From: a virus
Direction: 5' to 3' (one strand)
IMG/VR virus record: IMGVR_UViG_3300049719_000074
Coordinates: 1 to 20,562 of that record
DNA: 20,562 bases
This document shows, piece by piece, positions 1-12,317 of this stretch (position 1 is its first letter; the number at the start of each line of letters is the position of its first letter). The translations under genes were made by a program, and so were the position numbers. The notes under the pieces were generated by a model, which was not told where the DNA came from, did not search any database, and was given only the letters and a program-made list of their open reading frames with translations.

Positions 1-1175
1 TTGGTCCCGACGGCCACGGTGGCGACGACGGTGTTGTCACTGGTTCGGATGACCGAGACGGTGGCGGAGCCGTAGTTGGCCACGTAGGCGTAGGCGCCGC
101 TGGGCGTGACCGCTACGCCGATGGGGCCGGTCCCGACGGTTACGGTGGCGACGACGGTGTTGTCACTGGTTCGGATGACCGAGACGGTGGCGGGGCCGTT
201 GTTGGCCACGTAGGCGTAGGCGCCGCTGGGCGTGACCGCTACGCCGAGGGGGCTGGTCCCGACGGTTACGGTGGCGACGACGGTGTTGTCACTGGTTCGG
301 ATGACCGAGACGTTGGCGGAGCCGTTGTTGGGCACGTAGGCGTAGGCGCCGCTGGGCGTGACCGCTACGCCGATGGGGCCGGACCCGACGGCCACGGTGG
401 CGACGACGGTGTTGTCACTGGTTCGGATGACCGAGACGGTGGCGGAGCCGTGGTTGGGCACGTAGGCGTAGGCGCCGCTGGGCGTGACCGCTACGCCGTA
501 GGGGCCGGACCCGACGGCCACGGTGGCGACGACGGTGTTGTCACTGGTTCGGATGACCGAGACGTTGGCGGAGCCGTTGTTGGCCACGTAGGCGTAGGCG
601 CCGCTGGGCGTGACCGCTACGCCGACGGGGTTGGTCCCGACGGTTACGGTGGCGCACCCGACACCGAACCAAAAGGGGGTCCGCTGAGCGCTTGGAGCGG
701 ACGCTCGGACGCCGCGATCGTCCGTGATGTTCCCTGCCGTGATCGTGGATGCGAGGGCAGCGACGGCGATCTGCGCCAGGCTGATCTCCCAAACTCCCGC
801 GGCGACCTGCGTCAGCGCGGGGACGGCAGGAGAGACGGAGGCGATACCGGGAAGGACAGCGAGCAGGCTCGTGCGGTTGGCGAGATCTCTGCGGACCACG
901 ATCCGGTCGATCCTGGCGTGTGAGGCATCGGCAGCCGCGAGCGCGAGCGTCTCCTGGCCGGTGTAGACCTCCAGCATGTAGCCCTGGACGAATGCCGCCC
1001 CCGTGTTCACCCGGACCGACATGGCAGCCGGAGACGAAGCTGAGACGGCGAGCTCGTTTGCGAACCCCGAGACCACGCCGTCGCTCATCATGTGGGCGAG
1101 CACCTGCGCCCAGGCGTCCGAGGTGTAGATGCGGTCGCCGCCGACTGAGTCGTAGAACCTGCTGCGCTGCGTCAT
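1..1175 (-). CDS. Tail fibre / receptor-binding-like protein with YVTN beta-propeller repeats (partial)
   Basis: The reading frame opens at ATG 1175 behind a good ribosome-binding site (AGGTGAT) and stays open to the left window edge, so the C-terminus is missing. Residues 1 to about 170 (MTQRSRFYDSVGGDRIYTSD...) resemble the N-terminal attachment domain of phage minor tail or upper-baseplate proteins; this is a judgement from sequence style. From about residue 175 come 42-residue repeats with the core VAVTPSGAYAYV and VSVIRTSDNTVVATV, which match the YVTN/NHL beta-propeller blade pattern. Five blades are visible here. It lies 10 nt downstream of the Gp37-like tail gene, at the end of the tail module where receptor-binding proteins usually sit. 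The inferred role is a tail-tip or side-fibre adhesin. A cell-surface propeller protein of bacterial origin is the alternative source of the repeats. Confidence 0.75.
   Translation of the reverse strand, partial: MTQRSRFYDSVGGDRIYTSDAWAQVLAHMMSDGVVSGFANELAVSASSPAAMSVRVNTGAAFVQGYMLEVYTGQETLALAAADASHARIDRIVVRRDLANRTSLLAVLPGIASVSPAVPALTQVAAGVWEISLAQIAVAALASTITAGNITDDRGVRASAPSAQRTPFWFGVGCATVTVGTNPVGVAVTPSGAYAYVANNGSANVSVIRTSDNTVVATVAVGSGPYGVAVTPSGAYAYVPNHGSATVSVIRTSDNTVVATVAVGSGPIGVAVTPSGAYAYVPNNGSANVSVIRTSDNTVVATVTVGTSPLGVAVTPSGAYAYVANNGPATVSVIRTSDNTVVATVTVGTGPIGVAVTPSGAYAYVANYGSATVSVIRTSDNTVVATVAVGT
4..633 (-). repeat. Five 126-bp in-frame tandem repeats encoding propeller blades
   Basis: Copies lie at 4-129, 130-255, 256-381, 382-507 and 508-633, each exactly 126 bp (42 codons), with partial units on both sides. 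A framework including the segment encoding RTSDNTVVATV is identical in all copies. Differences fall in about nine codons. The array probably continues beyond the left edge. Confidence 0.93.
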
Positions 1176-1185
1176 GAGATCACCT

Positions 1186-2280
1186 TTACGCTAGTTCGCT
1201 CGTGCTGATAAGCCCCGCGGGCGAGGTCGGGAACGGCCGCCCCAGAATGGCGACCACTTCGGGCACCACGGAGGACTGGACCGTCTCATCAACTTCTACG
1301 ATCCGGGCGGGATAGGACAAGCCGCGTTCCTTGTTGCGGACGGTCACGATGTCTCCGAGGAACCAATCGACCCCGTACCGGAACGATCCATACGCCGAGA
1401 CGTTGGCCTCTAGGCTGAACTGGCCGGCGTTGGCCGCGAGCACATCGTCGCCGCGACGCCCGAGCAAGGTCGTATCTCCAACGGTGACGTCTCGGGCGTC
1501 AACGAATGCCTCGCGTCGATCGAACCCGGTTGGCTCTACGGCGGGGCGCGTGACGATGTCTCGGGCGGCGCCCAAACCCTGACCGGCGACCAGAGCGAGG
1601 CTGATCGAGCCCGAGAGGTTCGTCAGTTCCGTCCACGACGCGAGAGTCTCGAACGAGAAGTCGAAGAACACGCTCGCAGAGCGATCGGTCCCCGCGATCA
1701 CGTCGAACGTGAAGCCGCTGGGGAGGCCCAGAGTCGTCGCGAGCGTGGTCTTCCATCCCAGCGCCCCGGCCTGGCCGATCTCCGCCAGCAGGTCGACAAG
1801 GTTCTGGTACCGGGCGTCCTTGGAGATGACGGCTCCGCGTGCGATGTCCGCCGCACAAGCGAGCCCGGGAACGATCCGGGCTGCAGCAGCGGCGGGCCCC
1901 ATGTTGTCCCCGACGTAGTGCTTCATGGCCGTCTCCGCCGCGACCGAGGTCTGCGAGTCGTATGCCATGCCTGCGGTGGGGAGACAGAGCCGCGGGAGCC
2001 CTTCGATCGAGCTGCCGTTTGCGGTCATCGTGTAGTTCGCGGCTGAGCCCGACTGATCGATCTCCAGCGTGTCCACCAAGTAGACCAGCTGGTCGCCGCC
2101 GGAGGGGTCGGGCACGAACAGGAGCCGGCCGGCCTCTAGATTCGGGGCCTGGCGCCAGTTGGCGACCAGCTCGATCGTGTCGACGCCCCAGAACCGGCGC
2201 TTAAGGGTGAGTCGGGTCGAGGCTTCCCCCACCAGCCCCAGGGTCGCGAGGGTGTCTCGGTCGAGGATGTAGGCTCTCAT
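1186..2280 (-). CDS. Siphovirus ReqiPepy6 Gp37-like tail protein
   Basis: The 364-aa protein begins MRAYILDRDTLATLGLVGEA, followed by FWGVDTIELVANW and a segment on lines of VYLVDTLEIDQSG. This order matches the N-terminal half of the ReqiPepy6 Gp37-like family, which lies between the distal tail protein and the fibres in actinophages and is thought to form the tail hub or baseplate core. The C-terminal part (GDIVTVRNKERGLSYPARIVEV) is the usual family ending. The open frame extends upstream to 2805, but ATG 2280 is chosen because it gives the ATGA overlap with the preceding gene's stop at 2277 and has AGAGGT upstream. No enzymatic motif is visible. Confidence 0.8.
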   Translation of the reverse strand: MRAYILDRDTLATLGLVGEASTRLTLKRRFWGVDTIELVANWRQAPNLEAGRLLFVPDPSGGDQLVYLVDTLEIDQSGSAANYTMTANGSSIEGLPRLCLPTAGMAYDSQTSVAAETAMKHYVGDNMGPAAAAARIVPGLACAADIARGAVISKDARYQNLVDLLAEIGQAGALGWKTTLATTLGLPSGFTFDVIAGTDRSASVFFDFSFETLASWTELTNLSGSISLALVAGQGLGAARDIVTRPAVEPTGFDRREAFVDARDVTVGDTTLLGRRGDDVLAANAGQFSLEANVSAYGSFRYGVDWFLGDIVTVRNKERGLSYPARIVEVDETVQSSVVPEVVAILGRPFPTSPAGLISTSELA

Positions 2281-3158
2281 ATCCCGCTGTACCTCTGGCG
2301 CCAGTAGAGCGCGGCGTAGCCTGAGACGTTCAGGCCGGCGCCGAAGCTGACCCAGTTGGAACCAGGAACGAGGCTCCAGAAGTCCGCATTGGAGAGGTCC
2401 AGCGCCGACATGAGATCGGTCCGGGTAGCACCCGAAACCAGAGTGACCGACTTGGCGCCGAAGCTCGTAGCGATCTCGACATAGTCGCCTGCCGCCAGAG
2501 CCGTCAGGATCTTGACGATCTGGCCCGTCGTCAGGTTGGACATGTAGACGTTCGTGGCCTCGCCGTACATCCGAATCAGCACCGGAGCATCCACGTCGCC
2601 GAGATTGACGATTTCCTGACTGACGGCACCGCCCTGCATCGCGAGGGGGAACAGGAGCGGCCAGCTCCACCCGCCGGAAGAGTAGAAGTAGAGCCCGACG
2701 TCCGCGATCTCGCGCCAGTTCGGGTAGGGCGCGTAGAACTCCACATCGGTCGTGATGATGCCTACGGAGGAGGGAGACGGAAGGTTGACGGAGAGGGGCT
2801 GACACTCGATCTCGAGCGGCGCATGGCCTGGCAGGGTGACGCGCAGAATGCCTAGCGCCTGTGTCTCGCCGGGTCGGACAGGCTGTCGAACGAGGGCACG
2901 GGCGAACGCGGCGCGCGCCGTCCAGAAAGCATCCGCGTCAGCGGCCTGGAGCAAACCCGTGACGGTGACCACGCGCGCGGGGGTATCCGTGTCGAGCAGG
3001 GTCTGGCCCGACTGTCCCGGGGTCTTGGTAGTCAGCGGGGAGACGGTGATCGGGCCGACCCCGTCGAGGGCCATCAACGTGATCGGATCGCCTGGGGTGG
3101 TGGTCCAGACCAAGGATGTCCCGCCGTCGGCCGGGAAGAACTCGACGAGGTAGCTCAT
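2277..3158 (-). CDS. Distal tail (Dit-like) protein
   Basis: This 293-aa protein starts MSYLVEFFPADGG at ATG 3158, two bases after the tape-measure stop. The N-terminal beta-rich half and the segment VEFYAPYPNWRE match the phage distal tail (Dit) / siphovirus tail component family. In that family, an N-terminal half forms a ring under the tail tube and a C-terminal galectin-like half carries adhesins. Here the C-terminal half includes DVDAPVLIRMYGEATNVYMSN, typical of that second domain. Position directly after the tape measure and before the Gp37-like gene is the expected one. The gene ends in an ATGA overlap with its downstream neighbour, suggesting coupled translation. Confidence 0.75.
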   Translation of the reverse strand: MSYLVEFFPADGGTSLVWTTTPGDPITLMALDGVGPITVSPLTTKTPGQSGQTLLDTDTPARVVTVTGLLQAADADAFWTARAAFARALVRQPVRPGETQALGILRVTLPGHAPLEIECQPLSVNLPSPSSVGIITTDVEFYAPYPNWREIADVGLYFYSSGGWSWPLLFPLAMQGGAVSQEIVNLGDVDAPVLIRMYGEATNVYMSNLTTGQIVKILTALAAGDYVEIATSFGAKSVTLVSGATRTDLMSALDLSNADFWSLVPGSNWVSFGAGLNVSGYAALYWRQRYSGI

Positions 3159-3159
3159 C

Positions 3160-6132
3160 CTAGAACCCCAGAGCTAGGCGACGCTGCGCCCGGATGATCT
3201 GGCGCTCGACATCATCGTGAGTGACGCCATTGACGATCATCTGACCGATCAGGGGGCCGCTAGGGCTCGCGCCGGCCGAACCGCCAGCCGGACTACCGCC
3301 CGCCATGAGTTGGGCATGCGACTCAACCGCCGCGCCCTGTGGCAGGTAGACTCGCTCCCGACCCGCCTCGCCGACGTCATAGAAGCCGGCCTCCTGAACG
3401 TAGGGCGTACCCTCTGCAAAGCCGTAGGTGGTGGCGCCACTGCCAAATCCGCCTACCTGCGCCGGGACCTTTATCGTCTTGCTCAGCGCGGTATTGAGTA
3501 CGTCCCAGACGCTGGAGGCGGCGGATTTGGCGGCTGCGAGTGCCGTCTCGGTAGTCATTCCTGCGAAGATGCCGCTCACGATGATTCCGCCCGTGGTGGC
3601 AGGAGGGGTGACGCCGGCCTCGATCAGGGCTTCTATGCCCTCAGCCGCTTCCTTGATCTCCGGGTTCTTCGATTTCAGCCCGGCAGCCAATTCGGCCATT
3701 GCCGCTTTGCCGAGCGGCTGGCCGCCCTCGACCAACTGTTGCAGCCGTGCCATCGCGTCGGCCTGCAACTGCTCGCACTGCGCCACCAGAACAGGGTCGC
3801 CGGAGGCCAGCCCGTCGGCCAGATTCTTGCTCGTCAGCGCCCCGATGATGTCCGCCTCTTCCATCATGGGAGTGCGGATGTTCTTCAGCCCCTCGACGAT
3901 GTTGTTCCACTCGTTCGTCAGAACGTCGCGGTTCTTCTGAATGCCAGTTGCAATTGCGCCAGGGATCATGGTCGCGATCAGTTCGGCGTCGGTCGCAGCC
4001 TGGTCCACGTTCTTCGGGATGTAGGACGCCAGGTCGCTCGCGGCGGCGTCTACGCTCATGCCGCCCGCGTCGAGCTTGGCGATGATGTCCGGGGGGATGC
4101 CCTGCGCGAGCAACGAGAGGTTGGCCGCTGCCACCGACATGGACGTGGGGATCACGGCAAAGGTGCCATCCGTAGCCTGGCCGAGCGCCCCTTTACCCGC
4201 GAGGATCGCGTCGATGACGCGCTGCGGCACGCCCAGCGCGACCATCGCGGTAGCGGCGGCCTGCTGTTCGGCGGAGTACGGAATCACCATGAACGTCCCG
4301 TCGGCCGCTACCCCGAGAGTGCCTTTGCCCGCCTCCAGCCCGTCAATGACGGACTGCGGCACGCCCTTTGCGATCAGCTTCGTTTCGAGCGCGGCATCCG
4401 CGGCAGACTTCGGGATCAGGGAGAACGTGCCATCTGCGGCTACCGCTAGGGTGCCCTTACCCGCGTCGAGCGCATCGATCAGGTCTTGCGGCACGCCCAT
4501 CGCAATCAGCGTTGCGTCAATGGCCATCTGTTCGAGCGACTTAGTTACGCCGTCCGACATTACGTCGGCCGCAGTCGTTACGGCAGGCTTGGCGTCCTTG
4601 AGCGCCGCGATCAGATCGGCAGGAACGCCCGCCGACTGGTATGCCGCGAGAACCCGGCTCTTTGTGAATTCGTCGGGGAGCGCAGCGAACGCCGCCACGG
4701 CAGCGGCTCGCGTAGCCGGGGTGTTACTGCGGAGGTTATCGTTGATTGCGTCCATTGCGCTCTGAGCAGAGGCAGCAGCCGCAGGTCCGATGTCGTCTTT
4801 TGTGAAGGCGTTTTGCACCGCGCTCGCTATGGCGAATACACCTACCCCCACCGCAAGTGGGATGGCGACCGCCAGAGCCACGCCAGCCAGGGTCCCGAGC
4901 GCCGTACCTGCCGCCGCCATCTCGGGGCCTTCGGCCGCTATGGCTCCAGCGACTTCTGGGCCGCCGGCCGCGATCGCGCCGGTCTCGGCCGCCACTACGG
5001 CTGCGCCTGTGGCCGCGCCTTCGGTAGTGCCTGCGACGATCCACGTCGGCAGTGTGAGCCCGAGTTGCTTGGCGATGATGGGGATGAGGGCCCCGCCGAG
5101 CGAGCCCAAGGAGCCCGCCATCTTCGGGCCGAGTTGCGAGGCAACCAGGAGGAGCGGACCGAACGACTGCCCAAACTCTGCGAGGGTGCCGCCGGCCTGA
5201 TGCATCAGCAACGTGAAGCGGGAGCCCCAGGAGTCTTCGATCGCCTGAGCCGCTTTGTCCGTGGCATCGGTCGTGTCTGACGAGGACGTGGCGAAGTCAT
5301 CCAAGCTCGTGATGCCCGGCTTGAGTGCGTCCGCCATCTGCGACCCGAGCCGCGTCCCAAACACCTTACCGGCCGCCTGCGCGCGCTCTAGCGGGTCCTG
5401 GATCGAGGAGATTTGCACGATGAGGTCGTTGAGCGTCTGGCCGGGCTTGAGGTTCTTGACGGCAGTCTGGAGGCCCAGCGCTGCCTTGCCCGCGTCGATG
5501 CCGGCCGAGGCGAACAGGTTGAGCAGGTCAACGCCGTCTTTCTCCGACATGCCCATCGCCTGCATCGCGGGAGCGATCTTCTGCAGCGCCGTCTGCATGT
5601 CGCCGATGACGGTGCCGTACTTCTGGTGGCTGGCCACGAGCTGGTCCATGATCGTGCCGGCGTCGTTGGCTGTCAGGTTCCACGCGTCGGTATCCATCTT
5701 GAGGTTGTGGACAGCATCGGCAGACTGTCCGGTGGCCTCTTCGTACTTCGCGAACTTCGCGGTGAGGTTGTCTGCCGCCTGGCCTTGCAGCCCGAAGCCG
5801 CTGATGACGCCTGCCAGCGATTGCTCGACCGCATCCATCGACAGGAGACTGGTCTTGTAGATCTGGTCGATGGCGTTGCCCTGCTCCTGGAGGGCGGAGC
5901 CGGAGAGGCCCGTATCGGCGGCCAGCTTTTGGGTCGCCTCGCCAAGCGCCGCAGCCTGCTGACTCGCGATACCGAACGTCGCACCCAGCGCAGCGAGGCC
6001 CGCTGTCTTGAGGGCCTTGTTCAGGTTGTCAGACAGCGTCTCGCCGACGTTCTGGCCGCTCTTGGAGGCGAGCGCGGTGGCTTGCGCCTCGAAGCCCGTG
6101 CCGTCGAGCGTTAGGCGAATCGCTGCGAACAC
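3160..6132 (-). CDS. Tape measure protein
   Basis: At 990 aa this is the longest protein in the window. Residues 1-300 are helical with the phage minor-tail (PhageMin_Tail-like) pattern, for example QNVGETLSDNLNKALK and LGEATQKLAADTGLS. A hydrophobic stretch at about 409-439 (LAGVALAVAIPLAVGVGVF) could cross a membrane during DNA delivery. Residues 502-721 are five 44-residue repeats. The C-terminus has the tape-measure signature YDVGEAGRERVYLPQGAAV. The track of one residue per 0.15 nm known for helical tape measures would predict a tail near 150 nm. GTG 6132 is the first usual start after the chaperone stop, but it lacks a good ribosome-binding site. A GGGAG at 6158-6162 lies 7 nt before an in-frame ACG, so the true start may be slightly upstream. 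Confidence 0.93.
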   Translation of the reverse strand: MFAAIRLTLDGTGFEAQATALASKSGQNVGETLSDNLNKALKTAGLAALGATFGIASQQAAALGEATQKLAADTGLSGSALQEQGNAIDQIYKTSLLSMDAVEQSLAGVISGFGLQGQAADNLTAKFAKYEEATGQSADAVHNLKMDTDAWNLTANDAGTIMDQLVASHQKYGTVIGDMQTALQKIAPAMQAMGMSEKDGVDLLNLFASAGIDAGKAALGLQTAVKNLKPGQTLNDLIVQISSIQDPLERAQAAGKVFGTRLGSQMADALKPGITSLDDFATSSSDTTDATDKAAQAIEDSWGSRFTLLMHQAGGTLAEFGQSFGPLLLVASQLGPKMAGSLGSLGGALIPIIAKQLGLTLPTWIVAGTTEGAATGAAVVAAETGAIAAGGPEVAGAIAAEGPEMAAAGTALGTLAGVALAVAIPLAVGVGVFAIASAVQNAFTKDDIGPAAAASAQSAMDAINDNLRSNTPATRAAAVAAFAALPDEFTKSRVLAAYQSAGVPADLIAALKDAKPAVTTAADVMSDGVTKSLEQMAIDATLIAMGVPQDLIDALDAGKGTLAVAADGTFSLIPKSAADAALETKLIAKGVPQSVIDGLEAGKGTLGVAADGTFMVIPYSAEQQAAATAMVALGVPQRVIDAILAGKGALGQATDGTFAVIPTSMSVAAANLSLLAQGIPPDIIAKLDAGGMSVDAAASDLASYIPKNVDQAATDAELIATMIPGAIATGIQKNRDVLTNEWNNIVEGLKNIRTPMMEEADIIGALTSKNLADGLASGDPVLVAQCEQLQADAMARLQQLVEGGQPLGKAAMAELAAGLKSKNPEIKEAAEGIEALIEAGVTPPATTGGIIVSGIFAGMTTETALAAAKSAASSVWDVLNTALSKTIKVPAQVGGFGSGATTYGFAEGTPYVQEAGFYDVGEAGRERVYLPQGAAVESHAQLMAGGSPAGGSAGASPSGPLIGQMIVNGVTHDDVERQIIRAQRRLALGF
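3970..4629 (-). repeat. Five 44-residue (132-bp) tandem repeats inside the tape measure
   Basis: Units begin GVPADLI, GVPQDLI, GVPQSVI, GVPQRVI and GIPPDII (residues 502, 546, 590, 634 and 678), each exactly 44 residues apart. The three central units share GKG-L, a DGTF turn and an IP motif. The first and last are degenerate but keep the register. Confidence 0.88.
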
Positions 6133-6153
6133 ATCGGCGAGTGCGGCCGTGGC

Positions 6154-6965
6154 CTAGCTCCCTTCTGCCTTGCGGGTACGCATGTTCCGCGGGTACCTGG
6201 CAGCGAGCGCAGCCACTTGCGCACGGCCCTTGGCTAGATCGCGGACCGGCTCAGCGGCGTCCGGCAGATACCACGGACGCGGGTACGTGGGCAGCTCGGT
6301 GTAACGTCTCGGCGGCTGAACCGTCAGGATGTACAGCGGGGCGACGGCCTCACGGACCCCATCGCGGACGGCCACGAGCATCTCAGTCATGCGGTCGCGT
6401 CGGTCCTTCTCGCGCTCCGCCTGGTCTTTCGTCCAGAGGAGGGCGACTTGGGAGTCAGTGTATCGCTCGTCGAGCTCGGTAGGACCAATGCGCCAGTGGA
6501 CAAGCGCGAACCGATAAAGCTCACCTGGCGTGAGGCTACGGCCTCGATCAGACTCATCCCCAGCAGCGGGGCCATGCCCGCCAGGACTAAAGGGGAGAAG
6601 ACTTCCTCACAGATCGCGTCATAGAGCACGCGGATTTCGCGGTCTGTGGCGTGATTGTCGAGCCAGTCTCGGCCGCCGAACGTGGCGACGTGGTACGGCT
6701 CACCATCCTCGTCGCGCGCCTCGTCATAAGCGACGATCATGTCGAGCAGCACGTCGCCCGTGAGTTCGGCCGCCTCGCCGAACGACTTTCCGAGGTCTTC
6801 GGCGGACTTCTCGGCGGCCATACGCTCCCGCCAGAGAGCGCGCCATTCGCGCGCCCCCCTGCGGGGTAGGACCGGTAGCCGGCGAGCTACGCCGGCTACC
6901 GTGACGGGGAGGACGGCCGCCATGACCGTCCCCTCCTGTTCCGGGGTGAGGTTGTCAGCGTCCAT
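6154..6965 (-). CDS. Tail assembly chaperone, long form made by -1 frameshift (gpGT-like)
   Basis: The first 126 codons are shared with the short form (6965-6588). A -1 slip on CCCTTTA at 6588-6594 re-reads base 6588 and continues 144 codons to TAG 6154-6156, giving about 270 aa. The -1 frame after the slip reads SPGGHGPAAGDE, then LTPGELYRFALVHW and IGPTELDERYTDSQVALLW. This is coherent protein sequence with a Gly/Pro linker, whereas the zero frame over the same bases turns Ser/Thr/Arg-rich and ends at 6387. Its position between the major tail and tape measure genes is where lambda G/GT-type chaperones sit. They bind the tape measure and guide tube assembly. An ATG at 6390 could start a 78-aa version of the tail end alone, but it would cut the coherent -1 frame protein in half. 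Confidence 0.78.
6387..6965 (-). CDS. Tail assembly chaperone, short form (gpG-like)
   Basis: The unshifted product is 192 aa, starting MDADNLTPEQEG at ATG 6965, only 3 nt after the major tail stop. The first 125 residues contain the helical core (GARRE-type RREWRALWRERM... and VLLDMIVAYDEARDED) seen in phage tail assembly chaperones or tail tube initiators. The residues after about 145 look like an out-of-frame tail: low complexity and Ser/Arg-rich. That fits the usual arrangement in which most ribosomes make the short form and a minority shift. It acts in the cytoplasm, coating the tape measure during tail assembly. No close family name can be given from sequence alone; the assignment rests on gene order plus the frameshift. 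Confidence 0.78.
   Translation of the reverse strand: MDADNLTPEQEGTVMAAVLPVTVAGVARRLPVLPRRGAREWRALWRERMAAEKSAEDLGKSFGEAAELTGDVLLDMIVAYDEARDEDGEPYHVATFGGRDWLDNHATDREIRVLYDAICEEVFSPLVLAGMAPLLGMSLIEAVASRQVSFIGSRLSTGALVLPSSTSDTLTPKSPSSGRKTRRSARRTDATA
6588..6594 (-). promoter_or_regulatory. Predicted -1 ribosomal frameshift slippery site
   Basis: On the minus strand the zero-frame codons are tcC CCT TTA gtc, an exact X XXY YYZ heptamer. In the -1 frame the last upstream stop (TGA) lies just before it, and the frame then stays open for 144 codons. Both tRNAs can re-pair (CCT to CCC, TTA to TTT). It is the only canonical heptamer I found in the overlap. Confidence 0.75.
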
Positions 6966-7800: not shown

Positions 7801-7895
7801 GTGTACAATGAGCGTGTCGGCAGTTGTGTTGCCGCTTTCTCATGCCCCTTCGTCGGACACAACCCGGCGAGGGGGCTATCCATGTGGAGACCACG
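7801..7895 (+). ncRNA. Structured kissing-hairpin leader of the first HNH gene (copy 1)
   Basis: Hairpin 1 is CGGCA/TGCCG (7818-7822 with 7830-7834) around a 7-nt loop GTTGTGT (7823-7829). Hairpin 2 is a 13-bp stem (7844-7856 with 7864-7876, two G-U pairs) around a 7-nt loop ACACAAC (7857-7863). The loops are perfectly complementary. A TACAAT at 7803-7808 could be a -10 box, placing the RNA start at the foot of hairpin 1; no clear -35 is seen. GGAGA at 7886-7890 precedes GTG 7896. A copy with compensating changes lies at 9237-9331. Confidence 0.72.
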
Positions 7896-8546
7896 GTGCC
7901 CTTCGACAAGAAGGCTTACAACGCGGCATATCGAGCGGCATACCCCGAGAGAATGCGGGCCGCCAGCGCGCGATGGGCCGCCAATCATCGCGCAGAGAAC
8001 CGGGCTTGCAGCGCGGCTTACCATGCGTCTCACCGTGAGGAGGACGCGGCCTACGCCCGAACCTATCGAATGGCCCACATTGACGAGGTTCTGGTTTCCG
8101 ACCGGTCCTATGCCGCTGAACGTCGCCCGGCACACCGGGCCGAAGCAAGGGCCTATGCCCTGGCCTATCGGACGGCGCACCCCGAGAAGGTGAAGGCCGA
8201 TAATCGAGCCTATGCTGACGCCCATCGCGAAGAGATAGCGGCGTACCAGGCGGGCTACCGAGCGGCACATGCCGACGCGGCCCGTGAGCATTACCGGAAG
8301 GCCAAAGCCATCCGCCGGGGGGCCGCCCTGTGCGACCATCCGGGCTGTCTGACCATCGGGCCTGACGCTCTCGCCTGGCAGACCAACCCGCATGTCTGCC
8401 ACCTGTGCGGTACGCCCGTCTGGCGTGGTGTGAACCTCCACATGGATCACGTCGTGCCGATCTCTCGGGGAGGTCTGCACTGCGCCGACAACCTGAGGCC
8501 GGCATGCGGTCCGTGCAACGTGCGGAAGGGCGCCCGGGTGGCGTGA
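7896..8546 (+). CDS. HNH endonuclease with Tyr/Ala/His helical repeats (copy 1)
   Basis: The 216-aa protein starts at GTG 7896, chosen because it aligns with the paralogue's GTG and follows GGAGA. Residues 1-140 are about eight 15-residue units of the form AAYRAAHPExxxA, predicted helical and basic. The last 70 residues hold a CDHPGC pair and then the HNH domain: CHLCGTPVW, MDHVVPISRGG, DNLRPACGPCN. Two CxxC pairs should bind a structural zinc; the DH histidines and the following Asn are the metal-dependent catalytic site of the beta-beta-alpha-metal fold. It reads opposite to the structural operon and ends 10 nt from the convergent neighbour's stop. It is probably a free-standing homing-type nuclease; the repeats may contact DNA, which is inference. 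Confidence 0.85.
   Translation: MPFDKKAYNAAYRAAYPERMRAASARWAANHRAENRACSAAYHASHREEDAAYARTYRMAHIDEVLVSDRSYAAERRPAHRAEARAYALAYRTAHPEKVKADNRAYADAHREEIAAYQAGYRAAHADAAREHYRKAKAIRRGAALCDHPGCLTIGPDALAWQTNPHVCHLCGTPVWRGVNLHMDHVVPISRGGLHCADNLRPACGPCNVRKGARVA
8370..8416 (+). repeat. 47-nt exact repeat shared by HNH copies 1 and 2
   Basis: Identical 47-nt sequence at 8370-8416 and 9935-9981, inside the zinc/HNH coding part. Similarity continues with scattered, mostly third-position changes to about 8520 and 10085. The third HNH gene carries a more diverged version around 12136-12290. This indicates recent duplication. Confidence 0.9.
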
Positions 8547-8799: not shown

Positions 8800-9224
8800 G
8801 TGATTGCGTCGATGGTTGTGGGGAATTTGACGACCAGCTGCCAAAGAGGCTGGCCGGTTCCGGTTGGGGGGTAGGGGTCGTGATCGATCCCGCCCGAGAT
8901 GACCTGGCTGTGCCAGATGCCCAGCCCTGACGCGGCCTTGCGGGCCCCGACGTTGCGGAAGACCGCCTCTGCCAGCATCCCAAACGCCTCAGCGTCGGCG
9001 TAGGTCGTGCCGTAGAGCCGGACGTACAGCGTCACGTCCCGGATGGGCATATGCGGGATGGGCGGGCCATCGCCCCAGGACACGACCACGAACCGCTGGA
9101 AGGGGGTCTTGGAGTCGCCCGCTGCCGGCTCGTGTGCGCGGATCCGGTTGGCGCATGTCGAGCCCACGGCGGCCCGCAGTTCGGCGATCGCGGCAGCGAT
9201 TGGGGAGAGCGCTTCGGCGGTCAT
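8796..9224 (-). CDS. Tail terminator / tail completion-like protein
   Basis: The 142-aa protein begins MTAEALSPIAAAIAELRAAV and contains VTLYVRLYGTTYADAEAFGML, followed by an Asp/His-rich segment and a closing beta strand (WQLVVKFPT). Length, alpha/beta pattern and position between the gp10-like gene and the major tail gene fit the phage tail terminator group (lambda gpU / HK97 gp10-neighbour, DUF3168-like). Those proteins cap the tail tube as a ring and join it to the head. No catalytic motif is seen. The start is ATG 9224 with a GGGGG stretch upstream. The gene is flanked on its upstream side by the second HNH insertion, whose leader starts 12 nt away. Confidence 0.6.
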   Translation of the reverse strand: MTAEALSPIAAAIAELRAAVGSTCANRIRAHEPAAGDSKTPFQRFVVVSWGDGPPIPHMPIRDVTLYVRLYGTTYADAEAFGMLAEAVFRNVGARKAASGLGIWHSQVISGGIDHDPYPPTGTGQPLWQLVVKFPTTIDAIT

Positions 9225-9236
9225 GGCTGCCCCCAG

Positions 9237-9331
9237 GTGTACAATGTGCGGGACGGCAGGCTTGGTGCCGGTTTTCTATGCCCCGTCTTCGGCCAAGCCC
9301 CGGAGGCGGGGCACTCCATATCGGAGAGGCT
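9237..9331 (+). ncRNA. Structured kissing-hairpin leader of the second HNH gene (copy 2)
   Basis: It aligns without gaps to 7801-7895. Hairpin 1 is CGGCA/TGCCG (9254-9258, 9266-9270) with loop GGCTTGG (9259-9265). Hairpin 2 is a 14-bp stem (9279-9292 with 9300-9313, three G-U pairs) with loop CCAAGCC (9293-9299). The loops are again perfectly complementary although four of seven pairs differ from copy 1. TACAAT at 9240-9245 and GGAGA at 9323-9327 are conserved. Confidence 0.72.
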
Positions 9332-10111
9332 GTGAGAGACCCCGCAGAGCAGAAGGCGTACGACGCGGCTTACCATGCGGCGCACCGCGAGCAAGACAAC
9401 GCCCGGAGCGCAGCCTATGGCGCCAGCCACCGAGCCGAGAAGAAGACATACGACGCGGCCTATCGTGCGGCGCATCATGACGAGCGAAGGGCATACGACG
9501 CGGCCTATGCCCACAGGGACCCGCCGGCGAGGAAGGCGTACTCGGCCGCCTATTACACCGCCCACCGGGCTGCTCTTCTCGCGTCCGCCAACGCCTACCG
9601 TCTGGCCCATTTGGAGGAAGAGCGAGCGAACCACCGCCGCTATCATGCCGCGCATCGGGAGAGGGCCAACGCCCGGCGCAGCGACCATTACGCGATGCAT
9701 CGCGAGGGCCTGAGGCCTTACTTTGCCGCTCGCTACATGGCGCACCGTGAGGAGATCAAGGCCTACGGCGCTGCGCGTTACGCGGCGCATCCCGAGAAAA
9801 GCAAAGCCACCACGGCCGCTTGGCGAGCCGCCCATCCAGACGAGGCGCGCGAACGGGACGGTAGGCACACCGCGCAACGTCGCGGCGCTGTTGCGTGCGA
9901 GCATCCGTCCTGCCTCGCTATCGGTCCTGTAACCCTCGCCTGGCAGACCAACCCGCATGTCTGCCACCTGTGCGGTACGCCTGTCTGGCGCGGCGTGAAC
10001 CTTCATATGGACCACGTCATCCCGATCTCTCGGGGCGGGCTGCACTGTGCCGACAATCTCCGGCCAGCGTGCGCGTTCTGCAATCTGAGCAAGCACAACC
10101 GGGTGGCGTGA
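9332..10111 (+). CDS. HNH endonuclease with Tyr/Ala/His helical repeats (copy 2, longest array)
   Basis: The 259-aa protein starts at GTG 9332 after GGAGAGG. The open frame continues upstream through the leader, but the leader's RNA-like covariation and the paralogue alignment favour this start. It has about eleven 15-residue units (for example RSAAYGASHRAEKKT and YGAARYAAHPEKSKA), three more than copy 1. The C-terminal zinc/HNH domain reads CHLCGTPVWRG, MDHVIPISRGG and DNLRPACAFCN, with all expected Cys, His and Asn residues present. It is convergent with the gp10-like gene, ending 5 nt from that gene's stop. It is probably an active homing-type nuclease; its target is unknown. Confidence 0.85.
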   Translation: MRDPAEQKAYDAAYHAAHREQDNARSAAYGASHRAEKKTYDAAYRAAHHDERRAYDAAYAHRDPPARKAYSAAYYTAHRAALLASANAYRLAHLEEERANHRRYHAAHRERANARRSDHYAMHREGLRPYFAARYMAHREEIKAYGAARYAAHPEKSKATTAAWRAAHPDEARERDGRHTAQRRGAVACEHPSCLAIGPVTLAWQTNPHVCHLCGTPVWRGVNLHMDHVIPISRGGLHCADNLRPACAFCNLSKHNRVA

Positions 10112-10719: not shown

Positions 10720-10926
10720 ATGCACGGCAAGATGATCAGCGACATGACGAACGGATACGGCGTCCGCATCCAGACCTTCGATGACGGGTCCTCCGCAGTC
10801 GTGGTAGACGAAGCGACCGCCCTCCGCCGGGAGCGCGCCACCCTCGCCTTCAAGGTCCGCGTCAACAAGGCTCTCGGTGTGGCATCCCCGAAGATGGAAG
10901 CCCGCATCGCTGAACTGTCCCGGTGA
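10720..10926 (+). CDS. Hypothetical 68-aa protein, first gene of the plus-strand operon
   Basis: I do not recognise this protein. It reads MHGKMISDMTNGYGVRIQTF, then a short acidic beta-like part (DDGSSAVVVDE) and a basic helical C-terminal half (RRERATLAFKVRVNKALGV). ATG 10720 has CCGGAG upstream at about 8 nt and is the first start after the promoter. Its stop overlaps the methyltransferase GTG start as GTGA, so the two are probably co-translated. Codon use looks like a real high-GC gene. A small regulator or anti-nuclease is possible, but nothing in the sequence decides this. Confidence 0.65.
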   Translation: MHGKMISDMTNGYGVRIQTFDDGSSAVVVDEATALRRERATLAFKVRVNKALGVASPKMEARIAELSR

Positions 10927-11618
10927 GCGACAGGCCGCGTCTGCTTGACCTGTTCTGCGGAGCGGGCGGCGCGGCGATGGGATACAGCCGTGCCGGGTTC
11001 GAGGTGGTCGGCGTGGATATCAACCCCCAGCCGCACTACCCGTTCGAGTTTCACTTGGCCGACGCCATGACGTGGCCACTGGACGGTTTCGACGTGATCC
11101 ACGCCAGCCCGCCATGCCAGGCGTTTACCGCTCTCAAGACGATGTACAACGCGAAGCCGCACATCGACCTGCTCACTCCGATGCGCGAACGGCTTGTGGC
11201 ATGGGGCGGGCCGTCGGTAATTGAGAACGTGGCAGGAGCCCCGATGGCCGACTATATCCGTCTCTGCGGAACGTCCTTCGGATTGGGAACGGGGGAAGCT
11301 GAACTTCGCCGCCATCGGTGGTTCGAGGTCAGGCCCGAGCCGCCCTTCCCGCAACCGCAATGCGTCCACGGGGGCCGGTTGGTGATCGGCGTCTACGGCG
11401 GACACGGGCGCGACCGCCGCCGGATGCGGCCCGCAACCGTTGGGGTCTATGGCAGCGCGGGGGGAACGTGCGTCCGTGACGGAACGCAACAGTTCAGTAC
11501 CGCCGAGCGGGCCGAGGCAATGGGCATCGACTGGATGACCGGCAACGAACTCTCGCAGGCCATCCCCCCGGCCTATACCGAATGGATAGGTTGCCGACTG
11601 CTGGAGGCTATCGCATGA
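10923..11618 (+). CDS. C5 cytosine-specific DNA methyltransferase
   Basis: This 231-aa enzyme shows the ordered C5-MTase motifs. Motif I is LLDLFCGAGGAAMGYSRAGF (residues 7-26, SAM binding). Motif IV is SPPCQAF with catalytic Cys65. Motif VI is ENV at 101-103, and motif VIII is RRHRWF at 129-134. The motif IX/X region is LSQAIPPAYTEWIG near 210-223. It transfers a methyl group to carbon 5 of cytosine in a specific DNA site; the short target-recognition stretch (about 140-195) does not reveal the site. It is shorter than typical bacterial members (300-400 aa) but keeps all key residues. GTG start 10923 overlaps the upstream gene; the stop overlaps the HTH gene as ATGA. It may protect phage DNA from host restriction or from the linked HNH nuclease. 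Confidence 0.93.
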   Translation: MSDRPRLLDLFCGAGGAAMGYSRAGFEVVGVDINPQPHYPFEFHLADAMTWPLDGFDVIHASPPCQAFTALKTMYNAKPHIDLLTPMRERLVAWGGPSVIENVAGAPMADYIRLCGTSFGLGTGEAELRRHRWFEVRPEPPFPQPQCVHGGRLVIGVYGGHGRDRRRMRPATVGVYGSAGGTCVRDGTQQFSTAERAEAMGIDWMTGNELSQAIPPAYTEWIGCRLLEAIA

Positions 11619-11773
11619 CCCTGATCGAAGCCGCCCAATCGCTTGGAGTGACCGCCGACACCTTGCGCCAGCAGATCGCCAACGGGAGACTACGTGCGCG
11701 GAAGGTCGGGCGAGACTGGACCGTGACGCCGCGTGAGGTCGAGCGGTATCGACGGGAGTCGCGGCGTGGCTGA
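11615..11773 (+). CDS. Excisionase-family helix-turn-helix protein
   Basis: The 52-aa protein reads MTLIEAAQSLGVTADTLRQQ, then IANGRLRARKVGRDW, then VTPREVERY. This is the complete pattern of the excisionase/MerR-like HTH (HTH_17) domain: recognition helix TADTLRQQIANG, wing RARKVGRDW, and closing VxxYxR. It overlaps both neighbours (ATGA with the methyltransferase; 8 nt with the HNH gene). In such operons a protein of this type may act as a transcription regulator or as a DNA-binding partner of a nuclease. The palindrome in the operon's promoter is a possible target. There is no integrase in the window, so an excision role is unsupported. Confidence 0.82.
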   Translation: MTLIEAAQSLGVTADTLRQQIANGRLRARKVGRDWTVTPREVERYRRESRRG

Positions 11774-12317
11774 GGACCCCGCGAAGGTCAAGGCATACCA
11801 CGCGGCATACCATGTCGCGCATCGAGAGGTACACAACGCTCGCAGCGCGGCTTACCAGACTGAACATCAGGAAGACCACGCCCGCCGCAGTACCGCTTAT
11901 TACGCAGCGCATCGAGAGGAGTGCTCGGCTCGGGTTATCGCTTACCGCTTGGCCCACCCTGAAGCCGACCGTGCCTACCATGCGGCGCACCGAGACAAAC
12001 GCAACGCTCAGACCAGAGTCTGGTCCACCGCCCATCCTGACCAGCGCCGCGAACAACACCGGAAGGCCACGGCTATCCGGCGTGGTGCCCCGGTCTGCGA
12101 CCATCCGAGCTGTCTCACTCTCGGAGCATCGGCGCTCGCCTGGCAAGTCAATCCCCACGCCTGCTACCTCTGCGGGACGCCCGTCTGGCAAGGCGTGAAC
12201 TTGCACATGGATCACGTCATGCCGATCTCTCGGGGAGGGCTGCACTGCGCCGACAATCTCCGGCCCGCCTGCGCGCCGTGCAACATGCGGAAGCATGCCA
12301 AGATAATCGCAGCGTAG
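11766..12317 (+). CDS. HNH endonuclease with Tyr/Ala/His helical repeats (copy 3, shortest array)
   Basis: The 183-aa protein starts at GTG 11766 with CGGGAG upstream; the open frame reaches back to 11733 but overlaps the HTH gene. About six 15-residue units (for example RSTAYYAAHREECSA and RVIAYRLAHPEADRA) precede the HNH domain, whose residues CYLCGTPVW, MDHVMPISRGG, DNLRPACAPCN are intact. It lacks the kissing-hairpin leader of copies 1 and 2 and is instead the last gene of the methyltransferase operon. DNA similarity to the other copies is clear but lower. It could be a homing nuclease or the restriction half of a modification pair; the sequence does not decide. Confidence 0.84.
   Translation: MAEDPAKVKAYHAAYHVAHREVHNARSAAYQTEHQEDHARRSTAYYAAHREECSARVIAYRLAHPEADRAYHAAHRDKRNAQTRVWSTAHPDQRREQHRKATAIRRGAPVCDHPSCLTLGASALAWQVNPHACYLCGTPVWQGVNLHMDHVMPISRGGLHCADNLRPACAPCNMRKHAKIIAA

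Follow-up and report, generated by a model that had tools for sequence, protein, structure and literature searches.

The locus described here raises the question of how tandem copies of a repeat can remain nearly identical in DNA while the few differences between them almost all change the amino acid. The window, by which we mean the whole stretch of 20,562 nt analysed, covers 20.6 kb of the genome of a siphovirus-like phage (an IMG/VR record) and carries terminase, portal and major head protein genes. A tail-fibre/adhesin-like gene lies at 3-1175 on the minus strand; 391 codons are seen from a start at 1175, and the reading frame is open at the contig end, its 3' part being truncated (ORF list; TIGR02276, E 6e-48; N-terminal PHROG matches). 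An N-terminal domain plus linker of 176 codons (648-1175, minus strand; matches to PHROG 5339, 1220 and 9534 over residues 1-155) precedes five complete blades of 126 bp or 42 codons, placed by the codon table on the same strand at 522-647 (blade 1, VTVGTNPVGVAVTPSGAYAYVANNGSANVSVIRTSDNTVVAT), 396-521 (blade 2), 270-395 (blade 3), 144-269 (blade 4) and 18-143 (blade 5), and the first five codons of a sixth blade at 3-17 are cut by the contig end, so that the copy number is a lower bound. Tandem Repeats Finder reported a single array in the window (3-654, period 126, 5.2 copies, 94% matches), and TIGR02276, the YVTN beta-propeller repeat, matched the blades in five stretches with 160.6 bits against a curated cut-off of 27.85.

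The gene stands in a tail-tip module on the minus strand, in the order tape measure protein (3160-6132; PF10145, TIGR01760), distal tail (Dit-like) protein (2277-3158; PF22768, E 9e-9; PHROG 33), Gp37-like minor tail protein (1186-2280; PF14594, E 4e-41; PHROG 538) and propeller gene. The PHROG label of the N-terminal domain (648-1175, minus strand) is 'head protein', which may be wrong; a role in the tail is more in keeping with a gene that follows those for the tape measure, Dit and Gp37-like proteins. Among annotated phage genomes, no record matched at least 80% of the window protein; the matches listed mainly covered the N-terminal domain, and one unannotated faecal contig showed similarity to the propeller. 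Other repeats were seen in the window. The tape measure protein contains internal repeats of ca. 44 residues (xGVPQxxIDxLxAGKGTLxVAADGTFxxIP) that are ca. 69% alike in DNA, and three ORFs for HNH endonucleases, which run against the direction of the structural genes (7824-8546, 9134-10111 and 11733-12317, plus strand), each start with an N-terminal run of degenerate AYxAAHxEE-like repeats. In the HNH ORF part, a sister phage (L005/G002) is 84-86% similar to the window, as compared to 95-96% in most other aligned stretches. A cytosine methyltransferase-like gene occupies 10923-11618 on the plus strand; an ORF in a longer contig of the same phage (G001, 28385-28840, minus strand) shares with it a nearly identical C-terminal stretch of ca. 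40 residues joined to the start motif, and looks like an internally deleted copy.

The five near-identical 126-bp copies reported in the preliminary description are present at 18-647, with a mean nucleotide identity of 95% and 33 of 42 codons identical base for base, including the uncommon GTA, CGA and AGT. The retention of these uncommon codons in every copy points to descent, not codon bias, and codon bias was ruled out as the source of the silent identity by 26 silent codon changes in the N-terminal domain of the same gene. About nine codons had been said to vary; eight of them change the residue (codons 2, 5, 6, 8, 22, 24, 26 and 28) and one, codon 1, is silent (GTA/GTG), codon 27 joining them when the blades of L005 are included. 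This sole silent variation is, as described, always paired with an amino-acid change within the window (ACC/GCC at codon 2), but the pairing is broken in L005, which has GTG-ACC. The minimal events within the window were 13 replacement and 1 silent (1/14), giving a binomial P for the silent deficit of 0.047 at a neutral silent fraction of 0.30 and 0.087 at 0.26. From the window alone, the deficit is borderline, suggestive but not decisive.

In the AlphaFold2 model of the window blades (pLDDT 94.7), the strands are formed by blade positions 7-12, 18-23, 28-33 and 38-42+1-2, and the best match of the model among solved structures was 1l0q (Z 31, rmsd 1.2 over 215 residues, 49% identity). On this model, with the blades of the window and L005 taken together, variable codons 2, 5, 6 and 8 fall at the D-A connection and 22, 24, 26, 27 and 28 at the B-C turn; no variation is seen in the A-B (13-17) and C-D (34-37) loops of the same blades. 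In the window, all eight residue-changing codons lie within a loop-side set of 15 of the 42 positions (P 5e-5; the set was drawn after seeing the data and follows the modelled strands), and with L005 all nine do so (chance 1e-5, for the same set drawn after the fact). In propellers, the D-A and B-C loop sets make up one face. Hence the earlier claim that the changes cluster in turns of one propeller face agrees with the model, in which the variable residues share one side, and the designation of this side as the top face comes from the strand assignment together with general propeller topology. A complete relative (L040) has a seven-blade gene with a confident model (pLDDT 89.7, pTM 0.88), so the window gene probably forms a seven-blade ring as well. 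In L040, the propeller is followed by ca. 500 residues of RARxVALAxSSASV-like repeats (4990-6568).

A check set beforehand, whether phages that share these repeats have diverged at silent sites in the ordinary way, was made on the sister phage, whose aligned stretches are 84-96% identical to the window and which has four complete blades and a partial fifth. The N-terminal domains of the two phages diverge in the usual manner of purifying selection (pS 0.242, pN 0.035), whereas no such ordinary silent divergence was seen in the blades (pS 0.019, pN 0.063), where only 3 silent changes, all at codon 1, accompany 26 replacement changes. At the N-terminal rate, ca. 39 silent changes would be expected (P 1e-15), and the contrast between the blades and the adjoining domain was strong (Fisher P 2e-7). 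The replacement excess, which is thus also seen in the closest relative, gave P 0.012 against neutral 30% silent, the 29 changes not being fully independent. The almost purely nonsynonymous variation originally proposed, borderline within the window (P about 0.05), is therefore convincing once this related sequence is included. Since the blades are nearly identical at silent sites and the N-terminal domains have diverged, the two arrays share a much younger ancestor than their neighbouring sequence, which suggests that they were recently exchanged or homogenised. A 12-codon linker ahead of the blades is identical in DNA between the two, directly after a 69-nt indel that could be the edge of a module exchange. 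Blade order is conserved with P 0.067, weak support for the descent of the array as a unit.

These patterns were compared with a set of 47 YVTN arrays, drawn from contigs of phages and genomes of prokaryotes; blade pairs of at least 85% identity occur in thirteen of the arrays. By the same measure, pN/pS among near-identical blades was 0.14-1.33 in cellular arrays, 0.9-1.1 in other phages and 3.7-3.9 in the window and L005. The loop-side share of replacement changes was 0.6-0.8 or more in most arrays, as compared to 0.36 expected, without enrichment in L064 and L053, and more distant phage blades of 43 residues contain silent divergence (pN/pS about 0.4-1.1) with replacements still enriched on the same side. 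Side-biased variation is thus common for YVTN blades; what sets the window and L005 apart is that they have almost no silent change. The enrichment in most cellular arrays would also be accommodated if the array were merely young, a product of recent amplification or transfer with few silent changes yet, whose loop face tolerates replacements without diversifying selection. Near-identical propellers do arise continuously (Pereira and Lupas, PMC9218822), and taken by itself the window gives a borderline P, about 0.05-0.09, for its silent deficit. Relaxed constraint, however, allows pN/pS up to about 1, as against the observed 3.3-3.9, and at several variable codons at least three residues occur, with five events required for codon 8 by itself (P 0.002); we regard mere youth of the array as rather unlikely, albeit the most serious of the alternatives.

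Repeat shuffling, the second part of the original suggestion, was not seen in the window's own phage: over 20,547 nt the 34.6-kb record G001 is identical to the window, down to the order of the five blades. A different phage family is the only one in which shuffled arrays and altered copy numbers were observed. There, G007 and G008 differ at 6 sites in 20,996 nt, five of them within 100 nt of the aligned end; the sole internal SNP turns a top-face Gly into Ser (blade 3 of the propeller, codon 9), at a site where the blades of that family also differ from one another. Between G009 and G010, the flank has 1 mismatch in about 11.9 kb, and the array differs by about 30 mismatches in some 520 nt and by an indel of one 129-nt blade, a local alignment counting more mismatches. 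Approximately 45% of the array 25-mers are private to each of the two, which indicates more than reordering, and the changes include silent ones and so look like blade replacement rather than point selection; both arrays of this comparison lie at contig ends, where assembly error is possible.

Repeat arrays derived from metagenomes may be misassembled, and the blades of several strains or paralogues might have been collapsed or misordered. Every contig of the window phage ends inside the array, and the window and G001 end on different sixth-blade alleles (GTGG in the window, GTAA in G001 at L018 1-2), a disagreement that reflects either strain variation or an assembly branch point. An artefact is nevertheless improbable as the source of the pattern, given two records identical over the shared stretch with the same blades in order and a separate phage with the same invariant codons; moreover, assembly errors would have no reason to fall on a single side of the propeller. 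The other end of G001 (L019, 34036-34542) also breaks within a repeat gene, composed of AESQKAYDAAL/AEPRKAYYA units.

Retroelement-driven mutagenesis is the best-known programmed route of phage adhesin diversification, and a search for a reverse transcriptase had been advised for this phage. Targeted mutagenesis of this kind, acting on adenines, could account for the adenine found on the coding strand at 12 of 14 variable nucleotide sites and for the third-position C kept by the replacement-variable codons. The adenine bias is weak (P 0.03 for biallelic sites), two variable sites lack A, and A is found without variation at 17 sites. Among these are two silent ones, in codon 10 (GTA in 10 copies) and codon 33 (CGA in 9 copies); a blade-wide adenine mutator would have hit them as well, which rules against adenine-specific retroelement variation despite the over-representation of A. 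Besides, no reverse transcriptase (RVT_1) was found in 14 phage records, a search that is not final as possibly all of them are fragments, and no second copy of a conserved blade 39-mer occurs outside the arrays in G001 or G002. A reverse-transcriptase mechanism is thus unsupported, and targeted mutagenesis appears highly improbable.

Nine further loci (L134-L142; L134 and L023 come from one phage) combine this N-terminal domain with unrelated C-terminal modules, among them tails of HGH repeats and an unrelated domain with WTADA at its end. These swapped C-termini, along with a gene order in which the tape measure and Dit genes come first, accord with an adhesin that exchanges its tip; accordingly, the window gene is annotated as a putative tail-tip adhesin, a probable assignment in which gene position and exchangeable C-terminus match a phage receptor-binding protein. 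The D-A/B-C face would then bind the host receptor. Of the diversified receptor-binding surface envisaged earlier, the one-sided replacement excess in the window and L005 stands, and we infer the binding. The propeller could instead serve as an enzyme or as a structural component, with its variable face bound to a partner from the phage or to a small ligand that changes, the fold being common to lactonase-like and other enzymes. We consider this improbable, because gene order behind the Dit and Gp37-like genes and the swapped C-termini fit an adhesin, and a hotspot on the loop face is expected for recognition rather than catalysis.

Based on these results, the explanation that we favour, with some confidence, is that homogenised or exchanged blades undergo diversifying selection on the binding face of a tail-tip adhesin, in a manner resembling the fungal sensors HET-D/HET-E. 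A conserved N-terminal attachment domain would be followed by a YVTN propeller of near-identical 42-residue blades. Arrays would recently have been exchanged and recombined, by unequal crossing-over or gene conversion, both within a phage and from one phage to another, which would keep the blade DNA identical and erase silent differences between blades, while mutations at about nine codons on the D-A/B-C side would be retained or favoured by diversifying selection because this face is proposed to contact the host surface. The small number of events, and the silent differences carried by similar blades of other phage families, weigh against this explanation. If it is true, phages also diversify by recombination and selection on propeller repeats, the same solution as in fungal self/non-self recognition, and the contact residues can be read directly from sequence. 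A broader idea, tentative and possible rather than probable, is that the exchangeable near-identical blade arrays of environmental phages form a shared recombining repertoire of host-binding faces, in which host recognition would be changed free of retroelements by array swapping, blade gain and loss, and selection on loop codons. Genes of this sort are probably undercounted, given that contigs of the window phage type end where the array lies.

In the open-access literature, adhesins with propellers and sensors of fungi turned up, but no phage in which near-identical blades are diversified. The propellers phi11 Gp45, PRD1 P2 and PhiKZ gp131C occupy known or proposed host-recognition positions, with a proposed sugar site in phi11, and the window gene likewise encodes a beta-propeller at a putative host-recognition position; unlike the window gene, they are not described with near-identical blades or repeat diversification in the available part of the source (PMC4901313). 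The archaeal surface-layer YVTN propeller 1l0q has the same blade family and fold, although it is a cellular surface protein with diverged blades. Highly repetitive, recently amplified propellers including WRAP (PMC9218822) resemble the window blades in near-identity of DNA; those propellers were amplified independently even when very similar, whereas the window and L005 share blades nearly identical at silent sites, which points to exchange. The PRDM9 zinc-finger minisatellite works alike, combining near-identical repeats with positive selection at contact residues according to the available parts of PMC2779102 and PMC3890296, but is an unrelated protein with an unrelated role. The HET-D/HET-E (HNWD) WD40 sensors of Podospora anserina show near-identical repeats, concerted evolution and instability of repeat number (PMC1805685, PMC2873952, PMC12222747), and their few codons under diversifying selection (d-a loop, codons 7 and 9; b-c turn, codons 25 and 27) lie on the interaction face (PMC1805685), so that window codons 5/6/8 and 24-28 occupy the same two loops. 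The fungal proteins are NACHT receptors with WD40 blades, in contrast to a phage tail gene with YVTN blades, and the NACHT receptor architecture is absent from the window gene, whose N-terminal domain is a phage structural domain. By this analogy, the window propeller probably works like HET-D/HET-E without belonging to that family.
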